Position numbers and translations under genes: made by a program. Positions 15,055 through 45,860 of a stretch of DNA of 64,000 nucleotides are shown here, one piece after another (position 1 is the first letter of the stretch; every line of letters begins with the position of its first letter). Source of the stretch: Octadecabacter antarcticus 307. GTDB lineage: Bacteria > Pseudomonadota > Alphaproteobacteria > Rhodobacterales > Rhodobacteraceae. Where the stretch lies: NCBI RefSeq assembly GCF_000155675.2, contig NC_020911.1, forward strand, positions 213,501 to 277,500. The letters are read 5' to 3'. Below the pieces are notes generated by a model. It was not told the origin of the DNA and made no database searches. It worked only from the letters and a program-made list of their open reading frames with translations.

Positions 15055-15402
15055 TTAAGCGGCCATCTTGTCGATGATCCTTCTCTCTAAAAATTCCATT
15101 GGCGTCAGGTTCCCCAGAGCTGAATGTGGTCTGCGCCAGTTGTAGTCGTCCTGCCATTCTTCAAGCGTTTTGCGGGCGTCGCCCAATGTAGCAAACAGCG
15201 TTTCATTGAGGCATTCATCTCTTAGTTTACCGTTGAAGCTTTCGATGAACCCGTTCTGCTGGGGCTTGCCCCCTCTCATGGTTTGCAAGCAAACCACTGC
15301 CGGGCGGCGGGACGCGATATAATGCCAATCGATACCCGTATTTTGAACCCATTTGAGGATCGCCATGCTGGTGAATTCTGTGCCGTAACACCTTCGGAAT
15401 AT
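15055..15402 (-). pseudogene. IS3-family transposase OrfB, 3' fragment
   Basis: The minus strand encodes the C-terminal third of an IS3-family integrase-type transposase: GTEFTSMAILKWVQ, then QQNGFIESFNGKLRDECLNE containing the catalytic Glu of the DDE triad, then WRRPHSALGNLTPMEFL. The 5' part is missing; the sequence changes near 15400 into the end of an IS110 element. Hairpin element HE1 (15271-15309) is inserted in frame between YIAS and GKPQQNG. Confidence 0.85.
15271..15309 (+). repeat. Hairpin insertion element HE1
   Basis: 39 nt, CCCTCTC start and GCCGGGCGGCG end. Arms TGGTTTGC and GCAAACCA. It lies antisense in an IS3 orfB fragment; removal joins codons for YIAS and GKPQQ, the expected IS3 sequence around this point. 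Confidence 0.85.
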
Positions 15403-15519
15403 CGCTAATTTAAGGCTATGACTGCCTGCGCAGCCCCAAATAACGCAGCAGGTGGTCATAGCCGTGCCTCAGGTCCCTACGGTGGTTTTGTACAAACCAC
15501 ACCGCAAAGGAGACCAACT

Positions 15520-16137
15520 ATGACCGATATCATTATTACACAAACTGCGCCCGTTTTGGTGGCCATCGATATCTCGAAGGCCCGCGACGAAGTTCTCATT
15601 GCTATTGCGGACAAGAAGCGCTGCCGTCGTTTGACTGTTCTGAACCAGCTAGACGACTTCAATCGTCTAATCACATCGCTTGCCTGCTACGGCCGCCCTG
15701 TCCGTGTAGCTTTTGAAGCAACGGGTAATTATCACCGTGCCTTGGCTTATCATCTTGCCGCAGCAGGTTTTGAGTTGAAGTTGGTGTCATCTGTGGCCCT
15801 GGCCAGAACGCGAGAGGCCTTGCACAACAGTTGGGACAAAAACGACCCTAAGGATGCCCAGGTCATTCTTCACATGATGGAGATCGGGAACGAGCAGTTT
15901 TATCATGACCCCCTCGTGCGTGGCACTAACGACATCCAAGAGCGTTCCAAAACGCATGACATCGTATCCAAGTCGAAGACCGAGTTGTGGCACCGAGTTG
16001 TGGCACCGAGTTGTGGCACCGAGTTTTAACCCATTATCTGCCGCTGTATTTTCCTGAAGCTGATCGTTTCCATCGCAGTTCTCGCAGTGACTGGTTCTTT
16101 GCTTTCCTTGAACGTTATCCGTCACCACACTTGATCT
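15520..16137 (+). pseudogene. IS110-family transposase, frameshifted and 3'-truncated
   Basis: The ATG at 15520 follows AAAGGAG and starts an IS110-type DEDD transposase: VLVAIDISKARDEVLIAI holds the first catalytic Asp, then RVAFEATGNYHRALAYHL and DPKDAQVILHMM. The frame breaks at 15984-16022, where a 13-bp unit is present three times instead of once. If reduced to one copy the sequence continues TELWHRVLTHYLPLYFPEAD and SDWFFAFLERYPSPHLI, as in intact relatives. Homology ends near 16135, so the Ser-containing C-terminal domain is lost. Confidence 0.8.
15984..16022 (+). repeat. Three tandem copies of a 13-bp unit
   Basis: GTTGTGGCACCGA is repeated perfectly at 15984-15996, 15997-16009 and 16010-16022. 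The transposase needs one copy (E-L-W-H-R-V); the two extra copies add 26 bases and shift the frame, so this looks like slippage expansion. Confidence 0.9.
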
Positions 16138-16542
16138 GTGGATATCGAGATATTTCGCGAGGCCGGAGCATTTTCTTGGACCCTCGAAATTAAAGTTGAT
16201 AGCAAACCTGAGGAATGGCCGCATGTATTTGTTGCTGACAAAGCCGCCTATGACGCCGCGATACTCTACCTCAAAGGCCGCGGATTGAACCCAGACATGT
16301 TTGCGGACGATGACGACTATCCCATCATTAAAAGCCCCCTTTGCCAAAAGCTGCTCGTGGAGGGGCATCCGTTTGAGATCAGCATCTACCGAGGGGTCGA
16401 TGAAGCAGAGTGGATTTTGGAGATCATCAACGCCAAGGGTACATCCTTTATCCCCGATGAGCGGTTCAAAACGGACAAGGATGCACTTGGCGTAGCACTG
16501 GCCGATTTTGAGAACGAACCACTCGAGGACTTTATTGGGTAG
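16138..16542 (+). CDS. Hypothetical protein, perhaps 5'-truncated
   Basis: An open frame of 134 codons from a GTG at 16138, directly after the truncated IS110. The product is acidic. Two stretches look loosely alike (FREAGAFSWTLEIKVDSKPE and YRGVDEAEWILEIINAKGTS), suggesting a duplicated small fold. No family was recognised. Because the IS110 homology ends where this begins, the natural start may have been lost. Confidence 0.4.
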   Translation: MDIEIFREAGAFSWTLEIKVDSKPEEWPHVFVADKAAYDAAILYLKGRGLNPDMFADDDDYPIIKSPLCQKLLVEGHPFEISIYRGVDEAEWILEIINAKGTSFIPDERFKTDKDALGVALADFENEPLEDFIG

Positions 16543-16652
16543 TCCAAGTGTATGAGACTTCGCAATTGCAGCGAAAGTCCGGTTTGAGGCTCCTGCATAG
16601 CAAGACATTTTTGATCATATTTGTGCATTTGTCAGAAGCAGTCATGTGTTCC

Positions 16653-16692
16653 CGCTGCCCGGCAGTTGGTTGCAAGGCAATCAATGAGAGGG
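16653..16692 (-). repeat. Hairpin insertion element HE2
   Basis: 40 nt on the minus strand, in apparently non-coding DNA 3' of the IS110 gene. Arms TTGATTGC and GCAACCAA pair with one wobble (G-T as read on the plus strand). Standard ends CCCTCTC and CTGCCGGGCAGCG. Confidence 0.85.
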
Positions 16693-16721
16693 GCCTGTTT
16701 GCGCGGTTTTGACCGCTGCCC

Positions 16722-16762
16722 CCCTCTCGGCAGATTGCTACGCAATCGCCTGCTGGGCAACG
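16722..16762 (+). repeat. Hairpin insertion element HE3
   Basis: 41 nt. Arms GGC-A-GATTGC and GCAATC-GCC around a TAC loop, with one bulged A. The end is TGCTGGGCAACG, a one-base variant. It lies 29 bp from HE2 in opposite orientation, in non-coding DNA. Confidence 0.8.
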
Positions 16763-16971
16763 GATGGGTTCCGCAGACCAAGTCCCTTACAGCTTAGCGG
16801 GCTATATCGCCCGGGACTTTCGACGGGGTGTCCTGGTTTTGGCGGCAGACTTATGCACCATCATCTCGTGGGTCTTGCTAACTCTTTGTTCTTCCTCTCT
16901 TAAGTAATGTGCGTTGTATAAGGTTCGTTGCGCGTTAAAACGGCCCAGACGATCCTTGCCGTTTTATTGGC

Positions 16972-16985
16972 CCCTCTCGGGCAGC
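16972..16985 (+). repeat. Hairpin insertion element HE4, minimal form without hairpin
   Basis: Only CCCTCTCGGGCAGC, 14 nt: the two conserved ends joined with no variable hairpin. Removal restores the IS110 frame (VAIA then NKTARIVW). CCC and GGG could still pair across a TCTC loop. Boundaries are ambiguous by one base. Confidence 0.7.
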
Positions 16986-44162: not shown

Positions 44163-44203
44163 CCCTCTCGGGATCATGCTGCGCATAACCCTGCCGGGCA
44201 ACG
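44163..44203 (+). repeat. Hairpin insertion element HE22
   Basis: 41 nt, sense; arms GGG-ATCATGC and GCAT-AACCC, end CTGCCGGGCAACG. Removal gives AIMNS-DQGSQFTG, restoring the catalytic-Asp region. Confidence 0.9.
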
Positions 44204-44271
44204 GATCAGGGCAGTCAGTTCACTGGCTTTGAATGGATAAATGCACTGAAGGATGCGGACGTAAGGATATC

Positions 44272-44308
44272 CCCTCTCACGCATGTAAACATGCGCTGCC
44301 GGGCAGTG
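44272..44308 (+). repeat. Hairpin insertion element HE23
   Basis: 37 nt, sense; arms GCATG and CATGC around TAAA, end CTGCCGGGCAGTG. Removal gives DVRIS-MDGKGR. Only 25 bp separate it from HE24. Confidence 0.9.
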
Positions 44309-44333
44309 CATGGACGGTAAAGGTCGCTGGCCC

Positions 44334-44372
44334 CCCTCTCATGGTTTGCGAGCAAACCACTGCCGGGCAACG
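44334..44372 (+). repeat. Hairpin insertion element HE24
   Basis: 39 nt, sense; arms TGGTTTGC and GCAAACCA around GA, end CTGCCGGGCAACG. Removal gives KGRWP-DNRMIERL. Confidence 0.9.
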
Positions 44373-44700
44373 GACAACCGGATGATCGAACGACTTTGGC
44401 GCTCCCTGAAATATGAATGCATCTATCTCAATGCATTTGAAACCGGTTCAGAAACACGCGCCGGGATTGAAAAATGGATTGCGTACTACAACGCAGAACG
44501 GCCACATTCCACGCACGGAATATTGACCCCAGATGAAGCCTATGACAGAAAAATAGAACCAATGAGATCAGCAGCCTAAATGAAACCCTGATCCACCTTA
44601 AGTTGGCCGCAAACTGGTCGAATTACTGGGACCACCTCTGAGAGCCCCGCTTTCCGGCGCGCTTCAAGATGCGCAGCAGACCTTTTCGGCTTCTTCTATT

Positions 44701-44732
44701 ACCAGGCAGGGCATGTTTACATGCCCGAGAGG
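44701..44732 (-). repeat. Hairpin insertion element HE25, shortened
   Basis: About 32 nt; start CCCTCTC, arms GGGCATG and CATGCCC around TAAA (same arms as HE7), end cut after CTGCCTGGT. It lies in non-coding IS-derived DNA between an IS3 and an IS110. Confidence 0.75.
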
Positions 44733-44790
44733 GCACGAACCTCGTCCGGTGAGGGACGACCCCGTTAGGATTGTGGGTTGGCGTTTTAGT

Positions 44791-45860
44791 TCATGCCATG
44801 CCTCCCACTTGGTCCTGACGGAATTCTGAGCCATCGATCCAACAGCGGTGCATTAGGACGGCCAACTTACGTGCGACAGCAACGACGGCGCGGCGACGTC
44901 CTTTGGTGCGCATCAATCGCATGCCCCCTCTCAGCGATGCAGGCATCGCCTGCCGGGCAGCGCAAGATTTAATCTGGGAGCTTGCCATCGTTCGCATAAG
45001 CAGCGCATTGGCAGCTGCATATAGAACGGCCCGCACGTCTCGATCCCCAGACTTGGATATCCGCCCTGGATTGTCATGCTCTCCTGACTGATATCTTCGC
45101 GGTGTAAGCCCAAAATATGCGCCAACGGTGCGGGATCGTTTAAAACGGGTTGGATCATCAACCGCCGATTTAAAGCTCAACGCAGCGATAGGGCCGACGC
45201 CAGGAATAGTCATCAATTTCATGCAGACATCATCTTGACTGGCTGCCCTCTTAACGCGCCGATCTAGTTCCAAATAATGTTGATACAAAACGGCCCTCGC
45301 ATCGAGCAATGGCACGAGAGCATGTGCCAGAACATCATCGATCTCGATCATGGGCCGTACAACGCTGTCGAAGCTACCATGCTTCACAGTTTTGGGAGGC
45401 GGACTCCAAAAACCTTCAGTAATCCACGCACTTCATTGGCTAGATCAATCGTCTTCTTTAGGAGCGTCTTACGCGTGCTGAGCAACGCGCGTAGGCCATG
45501 AGCCTCACGACTTTTCATATGGACGGGACTAAACCAGCCTGTGCGTAATATTTGCGCGATACCTCGTGCATCTGTTTTGTCGGTCTTATTCCTCATCGCT
45601 GACAGAGCAGCACTCACTTGGCGTGCCTCCATGCAGACAACATCAAAACCTTCACCGGTCAGGCCAAAGAAAAGATGCTGACTCATCGATCCAGCCTCAA
45701 AGCCAACACGTTCAATCGGATGTGGAAATTCCAAAAGGCATTCAGCGATATCACCGACCTCACAAGGCAGCTCTCGCTCGAACAGCACCGTTCCTTTGCC
45801 ATCAACAATGCAAAGTGCACAGGATCGCAATGACACATCTAATCCAGCATAGTATTCCAT
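44791..45860 (-). pseudogene. IS110-family transposase with one frameshift and one hairpin element
   Basis: From ATG 45860: MEYYAGLDVSLRSCALCIVD (catalytic Asp), GFEAGSMSQHLFFGL, RNKTDKTDARGIAQILRTG, then a frameshift near 45385 where one A is missing from an A run (PK-TVKHGSF), then LMTIPGVGPIAALSFKSAV, GAYFGLTPRRYQSGEHDNPG and the C terminus RRAVVAVARKLAVLMHRCW. HE26 is inserted after SSQIKSW and happens to be 36 nt, so it is read through. Correcting both gives 345 codons. Confidence 0.87.
44927..44962 (+). repeat. Hairpin insertion element HE26
   Basis: 36 nt, antisense in the IS110 gene; start CCTCTC, arms GCGATGC and GCATCGC, end CTGCCGGGCAGCG. Removal joins QIKSW to GMRLMRTKG. Same arms as HE13. 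Confidence 0.86.

Follow-up and report, generated by a model that had tools for sequence, protein, structure and literature searches.

What are the tiny hairpins that interrupt so many transposase genes in one stretch of the genome of Octadecabacter antarcticus 307, and how did they come to be there? The stretch, hereafter the window, covers 64,000 nucleotides (contig NC_020911.1, positions 213,501 to 277,500), and its first-pass annotation had described a dispersed family of about 26 tiny hairpin insertion elements in and around insertion sequence (IS) genes, proposing a pattern search of this and related genomes and a covariance model of the fold. The search and the model, extended by comparisons of sites with and without the element, show that the family is real: it is a family-wide, non-autonomous hairpin element that resides in ISs.

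The element was recognized in three ways: by a strict pattern, CCCTCTC-N(5-35)-CTGCCGGGCARYG; by a tolerant caller, which allows up to two mismatches in CCCTCTC and up to one in the core and adds a stem score; and by a covariance model built from 30 non-redundant 41-mers and used with a cut-off of E<0.05. The covariance model places 24 copies in the window, and one further at E = 0.93, all inside positions 15271 to 44962; the tolerant caller finds 18, and the literal pattern of the first-pass annotation matches 14 times. Two more degenerate copies, at 42992-43028 and about 43251-43288, were recognized by pattern match or by inspection of the sequence, which makes the earlier count of about 26 a fair one, with the reservation that one of the 24 is a 15-nt remnant without a hairpin (16972-16986) and another a long imperfect match (17161-17236) that overlaps the copy at 17138-17175. 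Across the host genome (4.88 Mb, two contigs) the strict pattern occurs 254 times and its reversed control not once, and in the first set of loci the tolerant caller makes 280 calls in real DNA against 5 in reversed DNA. Chance palindromes are ruled out by the reversed-pattern, reversed-DNA and shuffle controls. An assembly artefact confined to the window is ruled out by copies in many genomes, and membership of one longer known IS by residence in different IS families.

At 172 unique sites in the first loci the parts follow the same order, namely CCCTCTC, stem, loop, stem and CTGCCGGGCA[AG][CT]G, with commonest lengths of 41, 37, 39 and 43 bp and an overall range of about 34-45 bp. The first-pass annotation was right about CCCTCTC and about a shared 3′ block, but the 3′ end is TGCCGGGCA[AG][CT]G and not GT/AC alone. 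Between the ends there are 141 distinct middle sequences, 16 of which each occur at more than one site. Among the 30 non-redundant 41-mers, the nine-pair stem is paired in 95.6% of cells, compared with 68.5% in shuffles and 31-47% with slid partners; two-sided changes occur in eight of the nine pairs, covariation scores 0.631 with 0.159 for comparison, and 27 of the 30 have a bulged A. This covariation implies that the element, as single-stranded DNA or RNA, is folded at some stage of its life. When five copies were folded computationally, the right block CTGCCGGGCARYG of three of them adopted a small hairpin of its own, CTGC(CGG)GCAG, in addition to the main one. The two extremes of the element, CCCTCTC and RYG, lack complementarity, so there are no terminal inverted repeats, and the claim that the copies have no transposase ends of their own was borne out by tests on the family. 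At the gathering score, Rfam matches no hairpin element in the window; its sole match there is a cobalamin riboswitch at 54488-54707 on the minus strand.

That these are insertions is clearest where a filled site, which carries the element, can be aligned with an empty one. By a loose criterion, a homologous stretch without the element exists for 137 of 199 unique sites among the loci compared. A strict set comprises 82 sites, each with a relative at least 75% identical outside the joint, gaps allowed. The joint is gap-free in 57 of these; the filled copy lacks one to four bases in 17 (a single base in 13), has one or two extra bases in 7 and shows both gain and loss in 1. A target duplication of three or more bases is seen in none of the 82; the usual kind of target duplication is therefore lacking, while small losses are common. 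A clean case is an IS256 transposase gene of Sulfitobacter indolifex, 1,248 nt long against 1,209 nt in relatives at 95% protein identity. The target resembles C^GATGG, with C at 75% in position -1 and G, A, T, G and G at 76, 65, 56, 58 and 46% in positions +1 to +5, amounting to 3.8 bits in total.

Both orientations occur, as first reported. At 121 sites with homology spanning the joint, 74 insertions are sense and 47 antisense, where the target motif would predict 61 and 60; at codon boundaries sense insertions are over-represented (43, with 25 expected), and only 13 of the 121 elements have a length divisible by three. When the flanks are joined, the frame is open at 94 of 156 exact joints and at 75-79 of 156 after shifts of one or two bases; with the element kept it is open at 87 of 156, and under a stricter threshold the joined flanks are open at 75 of 156 sites compared with 395 of 1,000 random pairings, all of which are weak statistics. 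The earlier statement that the elements contain no open frame needs qualifying, since the frame of the host gene is uninterrupted in some copies of 39 bp. At least five transposase open reading frames (ORFs) remain open across a 39-nt element, among them the S. indolifex IS256 gene, an IS91-type ORF, an rve-type ORF at position 15271 of the window, and IS5 ORFs of Loktanella salsilacus and Leisingera methylohalidivorans, both of which are entered at LLI^DSTGI and share 748 of 1,030 bases.

Residence in ISs was measured in 20 stretches of the host genome (399.8 kb in all), spaced along the chromosome and without overlap with earlier stretches. All 17 elements in this sample lie in IS DNA, with a control of 0; 14 lie in or adjoin DNA that resembles a set of IS proteins, whose coverage of 2.4% of the sample is the least that IS DNA can amount to there, and the other 3 were recognized by flanks identical to IS1182 sites of the window. 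In a Pfam scan of 117 ORFs at insertion sites, tallied over ORFs with hits only, the best 25 of 29 families belong with few exceptions to transposases (rve, DDE_Tnp_1, IS66, Mutator, IS21, Mu-type); outside this group fall conjugation families, found in one member, and an ORF for ornithine cyclodeaminase that has its end at an element. The hosts named in the first-pass annotation, IS3-, IS110- and IS1182-type genes, are joined elsewhere by IS5-, IS66-, IS256-, IS21- and IS91-type genes. At 18 of 219 unique sites the flanks have no protein similarity to any other site, and in other genomes a few copies lie between genes, several of them inside another common motif. A few hairpin types in seven loci (L291, L296, L311, L316, L059, L048 and L147) lie between genes and are followed by a conserved stretch like GAGTTTATTTTGCAAGATGAA; a GAGTTTATTTTGCAAGATGAA-like stretch is also present without an element in L275 and L285.

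Insertion is also recurrent at the level of the single nucleotide. Of the insertions, 55 could be placed in IS5-type genes, and 11 of them, in 11 loci and with nine distinct hairpin sequences, some of them alike, enter at one nucleotide immediately before the Asp of LLI^DSTGI. Clearly different hairpins share the same IS5 nucleotide and orientation in 62 of 1,366 pairs, where 18.7 would be expected from the motif. One locus (L096, near position 5035 on the minus strand) holds an element's final 13 bases and nothing more of it; they sit at a sequence resembling the recurrent IS5 target and probably represent a truncated copy.

Beyond the host, the strict pattern is present in 84 of 295 genomes of the family, the host included, and absent from 211; copy numbers drop from 254 in the host to 29 and 22 in the next richest genomes. 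The same ends in many genomes, together with the covarying stem and the homologous IS DNA that lacks the element, uphold the first description of a dispersed family of insertions. In a class-wide sample of 142 genomes only the host matched, with no match in the 140 Alphaproteobacteria of other families. A scan of named species matched at least 119 stretches, mostly from Rhodobacteraceae, and among the matches listed there are hairpin-bearing copies in Labrenzia and in Vreelandella, a gammaproteobacterium. One hairpin type matched 112 plasmid records, and one copy lies on a Hoeflea plasmid. As to a phage origin, one hairpin type gave two partial matches in phage records. Of the viral contigs, 25 match the pattern and 12 pass the stem threshold, one of these 12 being doubtful. 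Three matches outside the family (L056, L058 and L098) look like chance matches as judged by eye.

The copies in the window and their host genes are as follows, with covariance-model E values in brackets; the IS-type names used here and below (for example IS1182 and IS481) and the assignments of catalytic residues are in part provisional.

15271..15309, plus strand: antisense hairpin element across which an rve-type ORF is open (2.2e-4; also found by the tolerant caller); a relative in L032 lacks the element and has AGGC where this copy has GGAC
16653..16692, minus strand: hairpin element in IS-derived DNA (7e-6)
16722..16762, plus strand: hairpin element in IS-derived DNA, two target bases missing relative to L026 (2.6e-11)
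16972..16986, plus strand: remnant, both ends without a hairpin (0.043)
17138..17175, plus strand: hairpin element with a diverged 3′ core (1.3e-4)
17161..17236, minus strand: long imperfect match overlapping the preceding copy, perhaps a second inserted copy (0.015)
17386..17422, minus strand: hairpin element inside an IS110-like IPGVG motif, by eye (9e-4); a relative in L026 lacks it
17761..17797, plus strand: degenerate hairpin element (0.0032)
18084..18123, plus strand: degenerate hairpin element (0.0022)
18706..18744, plus strand: hairpin element in an IS1182-type gene (2.5e-6); homologues in L051 and L040 lack it
19123..19162, plus strand: hairpin element in an IS1182-type gene (4.6e-5); homologues lack it
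19346..19382, minus strand: hairpin element in an IS1182-type gene, reverse orientation (1.1e-5)
23220..23257, minus strand: hairpin element close to an rve-type ORF (4.9e-5)
24750..24790, plus strand: hairpin element in the second IS1182-type gene, which has a 467-codon open frame when the element is left out (1.8e-11)
42992..43028, minus strand: degenerate element (pattern match)
43129..43167, minus strand: hairpin element in IS3 orfA (0.0011)
43251..43288, minus strand: degenerate element in IS3 orfA, ends approximate, seen in the sequence; the frame changes here
43651..43688, plus strand: hairpin element in IS3 orfB at SR^QMARH, inside the Q codon (7.5e-7); homologues lack it
43887..43926, plus strand: hairpin element in IS3 orfB; its joint apparently lacks 1 nt and is out of frame, with a frame change (3.2e-8)
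43960..43999, minus strand: hairpin element in IS3 orfB, reverse orientation (4.3e-7)
44050..44089, plus strand: hairpin element in IS3 orfB (4.7e-7)
44163..44203, plus strand: hairpin element in IS3 orfB, directly before the DQGSQF motif (7.5e-12)
44272..44308, plus strand: hairpin element in IS3 orfB, SMDGKGR motif (1.1e-4)
44334..44372, plus strand: hairpin element in IS3 orfB at GRWP^DN (6.7e-6)
44697..44733, minus strand: degenerate hairpin element (0.035)
44926..44962, plus strand: hairpin element within the span of an IS110-type ORF (1.7e-5)
43040..44580, plus strand: host IS3-type element with nine interruptions, read with the elements left out (Pfam rve_3, rve_2)
18373..19874, plus strand: host IS1182-type transposase with three interruptions (Pfam DUF772, DDE_Tnp_1_6)
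24417..25843, plus strand: host IS1182-type transposase with one interruption (Pfam DUF772, DDE_Tnp_1_6, DDE_Tnp_1)
15418..16029, plus strand: IS110-type ORF adjoining the copy at 15271 (Pfam DEDD_Tnp_IS110)
15055..15459, minus strand: rve-type ORF bearing the copy at 15271 (Pfam rve_3, rve_2)
44791..45860, minus strand: IS110-type ORFs, the first bearing the copy at 44926 (Pfam Transposase_20, DEDD_Tnp_IS110)

How such elements multiply can be read in part from the ISs that carry them. For a 1,093-bp IS5-type IS, all 22 matches at 99% identity or more extend across one and the same 39-bp element within the transposase gene, and five matches at 86-90%, in loci that were read, have an element at this site; of the matches that stop at the element, the closest show 78-81% identity, and four at 78% are free of any element across the site. 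One of these four was read and is intact, and its 17-bp ends are the same. A second IS, which by eye resembles IS481, behaves in the same way: all eight full-length matches at 99% or more carry both of its two elements, and its one intact relative, at 77% and on the small contig, has a 331-codon frame and near-identical ends. Amplified copies of this kind mean that filled ISs multiply, most simply in trans, and the intact relatives of the two ISs are possible helpers.

The same copies bear traces of exchange. IS1182 copies with three elements in common are mosaics, mostly with 0-3 differences per 40 columns over the 240-320 columns around the elements and 3-18 per 40 columns in most other bins. 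Such recombination between IS copies confounds the ratio of non-synonymous to synonymous substitution rates (dN/dS), and a low dN/dS is therefore unusable as evidence that the inserts are removed. Eight further IS5 copies each hold about 4-10 inserts, counting fragments and a 61-bp insert of another kind, and have 0, 1, 0, 0, 1, 4, 0 and 1 stops over roughly 300 codons. In the eight elements common to two IS5 copies, L244 and L265, 12 of 313 positions differ, compared with 43.5 of 211 synonymous sites; the elements may be younger than the divergence of the genes, or constrained. Four IS5-type copies of the host genome (L235, L244, L252 and L265) also carry in the transposase gene an insert of about 61 bp (CCGGGGCGTCGCCC...GACGCCCGTCA, with an internal hairpin), at about reference nucleotide 597 or 650, which is a second mini-insert of a different kind, and another IS5 copy of the host (L250) has a short tandem expansion, GATGCATTGTATGCATTGTATGCATTG, beside an element target.

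On balance we lean towards the view that the hairpin is a non-autonomous DNA mini-element moved in trans, resident in ISs and spreading with them as a hyperparasite. It inserts as a unit, mostly flush and without target duplication, between C and a GATGG-like sequence in either orientation and nearly always within ISs. It would move as a single strand, more probably DNA than RNA, and its folded shape and two tags would be recognized by an enzyme encoded elsewhere. Insertion would usually break the transposase gene entered, the broken IS would then be mobilized in trans by intact relatives that share its ends, and recombination would hand the element from one IS copy to another, so that the hyperparasite could spread within and also between species. 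Whether all of this amounts to an undescribed mobility system, in which a machine that knows a folded single strand by its shape and two short tags inserts it flush, prefers transposase genes and returns to one catalytic-motif codon, giving a hyperparasite that disarms ISs across the family, is a bolder proposition that we regard as possible but rather doubtful.

Several observations weigh against this reading. The joints are not always clean, with gaps in 25 of the 82 comparisons; in another, gap-free set of comparisons, which by itself is unable to show the absence of a duplication, 11 of 14 mismatches at position -1 are changes to C, and several joints of a GGA class swap out about three target nucleotides. 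In computed folding, one of five copies is no better than its shuffles and four are only moderately better. No mover was found: Y1_Tnp is missing from 11 of 15 element-rich genomes, and both Y2_Tnp, the transposase of IS91-type rolling-circle elements (present in 6 of 16 genomes with the element and in 3 of 15 without it), and RVT_1, the reverse transcriptase of group II introns and other RT-borne elements (6 of 16 and 4 of 15), are missing from 10 of the 16, the host among them. Nor did a gene-bearing version between the tags appear in the 60 bp upstream of 15 orphan 3′ ends, which is all that this search covered. Finally, the closest filled and empty pair in 842 kb of host DNA is 91.6% identical over 95 nt, so that recent jumping in the host's own DNA is not demonstrated.

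This last point is what a passive residue would leave behind, that is, a mover long gone and old insertions that IS transposition and recombination have merely propagated, ISs being the DNA best able to spread them between genomes; mosaic IS copies and multi-copy carriers fit equally well. The 141 middles at 172 unique sites and the excess of same-nucleotide pairs would, however, require very many primary insertions, and 16 middles each sit at more than one site; we give this account a minor but appreciable chance. Somewhat less probable, in our judgement, is movement of the REP/REPIN kind, by an IS200-type (Y1, HUH) transposase with CATC/CGTC on the opposite strand as the target. Size, the bulged hairpin, the absent target duplication and the short one-sided target would all suit it, and Y1_Tnp was found in 4 of 15 genomes rich in elements and in none of 15 without them; the host, which is the richest, has 24 matches, most without stops in the match, compared with 0-2 in each of 30 relatives tested. 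Yet the 11 element-rich genomes without Y1_Tnp tell against it, as do the absence of a GTAG tag, copies in IS genes instead of between genes, and the Y1 loci themselves, since three of four inspected in the host are free of the element and the fourth has it in a neighbouring IS5 copy. A Y1-type enzyme is possible for the primary jumps, because later spread with an IS needs no Y1.

Two further explanations give the inserts a role or a remedy, and we hold both to be improbable. A host-run system that inserts hairpins to silence ISs would account for the near-exclusive residence, for IS copies that hold several distinct hairpins yet little other damage and for the catalytic motif hit recurrently, but filled ISs still multiply, the strict pattern is missing from 211 of the 295 genomes of the family, the insert leaves at least five ORFs open and no linked host gene was found. 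Slightly less credible still is removal of the inserts on expression, intron-like or by ribosome skipping, which would leave filled transposases functional. It draws on seven of the eight insert-laden IS5 copies having 0-1 stop in about 300 codons (the eighth has 4), on dN/dS of 0.21-0.26 for three pairs among L244, L252 and L265, which have many inserts in common, on the strong amplification of filled IS types and on several insertions at catalytic motifs. Against this stand insertions in both orientations, even inside one gene, the scarcity of lengths divisible by three, and dN/dS of 0.43-0.87 for L251 against L252, L265 and L244 and of 0.61 for L230 against L250; the low divergence of shared elements and the mosaic IS1182 copies mean that the low dN/dS may predate insertion. 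Moreover, amplified ISs have joints short of one base, at which even precise removal would put the gene out of frame; there are intact relatives whose ends are the same, and no host gene was found that is proven to be interrupted.

If the hyperparasitic mini-element that we favour is what these hairpins are, few mobile DNA units of bacteria would be smaller, and to our knowledge they would be the first small palindromic family to have the insertion sequence itself as its niche. If it is general, part of the transposase pseudogene annotation in Rhodobacteraceae would be due to a hairpin element. The question of how hairpins without a carrier move, which REPs, CGTC repeats and GC clusters also pose, gains many pairs of empty and filled sites, a clear target and a test of structure. 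Our literature search, which mostly left subscription journals outside its range, found no earlier description of the family, and the main text of the Octadecabacter genomes paper (PMC3646047) has no occurrence of palindrom, repeat, hairpin or miniature.

In its working the element can be likened to REP-type or mitochondrial hairpin elements, and it falls under no known definition among those that could be tested. According to one account (PMC3733652), REP/REPIN-RAYT systems have 20-40-bp hairpins with a variable stem, high copy number and a conserved unpaired tag at one end, all of which recalls the present family; the same source describes CGTC repeats as likewise lacking a known transposase and names the Rickettsia palindromic elements. 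The definition given there for CGTC-tagged REPs (CGTC tag, A/T first stem pairs, CCA tail) does not describe our logo and stem columns. The differences from REP/REPIN extend further: REPs are mainly intergenic, whereas all 17 elements of the host sample are in ISs; the tags here are CCCTCTC and CTGCCGGGCARYG, not GTAG or CGTC, in end logos from the 172 unique sites; and the elements are mostly not head-to-head dimers, nor is there a Y1 gene in most element-rich genomes tested. Rickettsia palindromic elements also lie inside genes of Alphaproteobacteria but are larger and in frame, whereas lengths divisible by three are few here and the hosts are ISs. Yeast mitochondrial GC clusters and fungal double-hairpin elements are hairpin pieces of about 40 bp without a transposase of their own, mostly intergenic, and they resemble the present elements in size and in the two possible hairpins but differ in sequence and in their organelle setting. 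Translational bypass inserts (T4 gene 60, mitochondrial byps) are short hairpin inserts within reading frames; here both orientations occur and some joints do not restore the frame, and no matching take-off and landing codons were noticed, though no systematic search for them was made. The fixed orientation relative to the gene that an intron or a bypass insert would have is likewise lacking, given the split of 74 sense to 47 antisense. Miniature inverted-repeat transposable elements, finally, are non-autonomous, abundant and moved in trans, much as we propose for these hairpins, which differ from them in having neither terminal inverted repeats nor a target duplication and in being far shorter.

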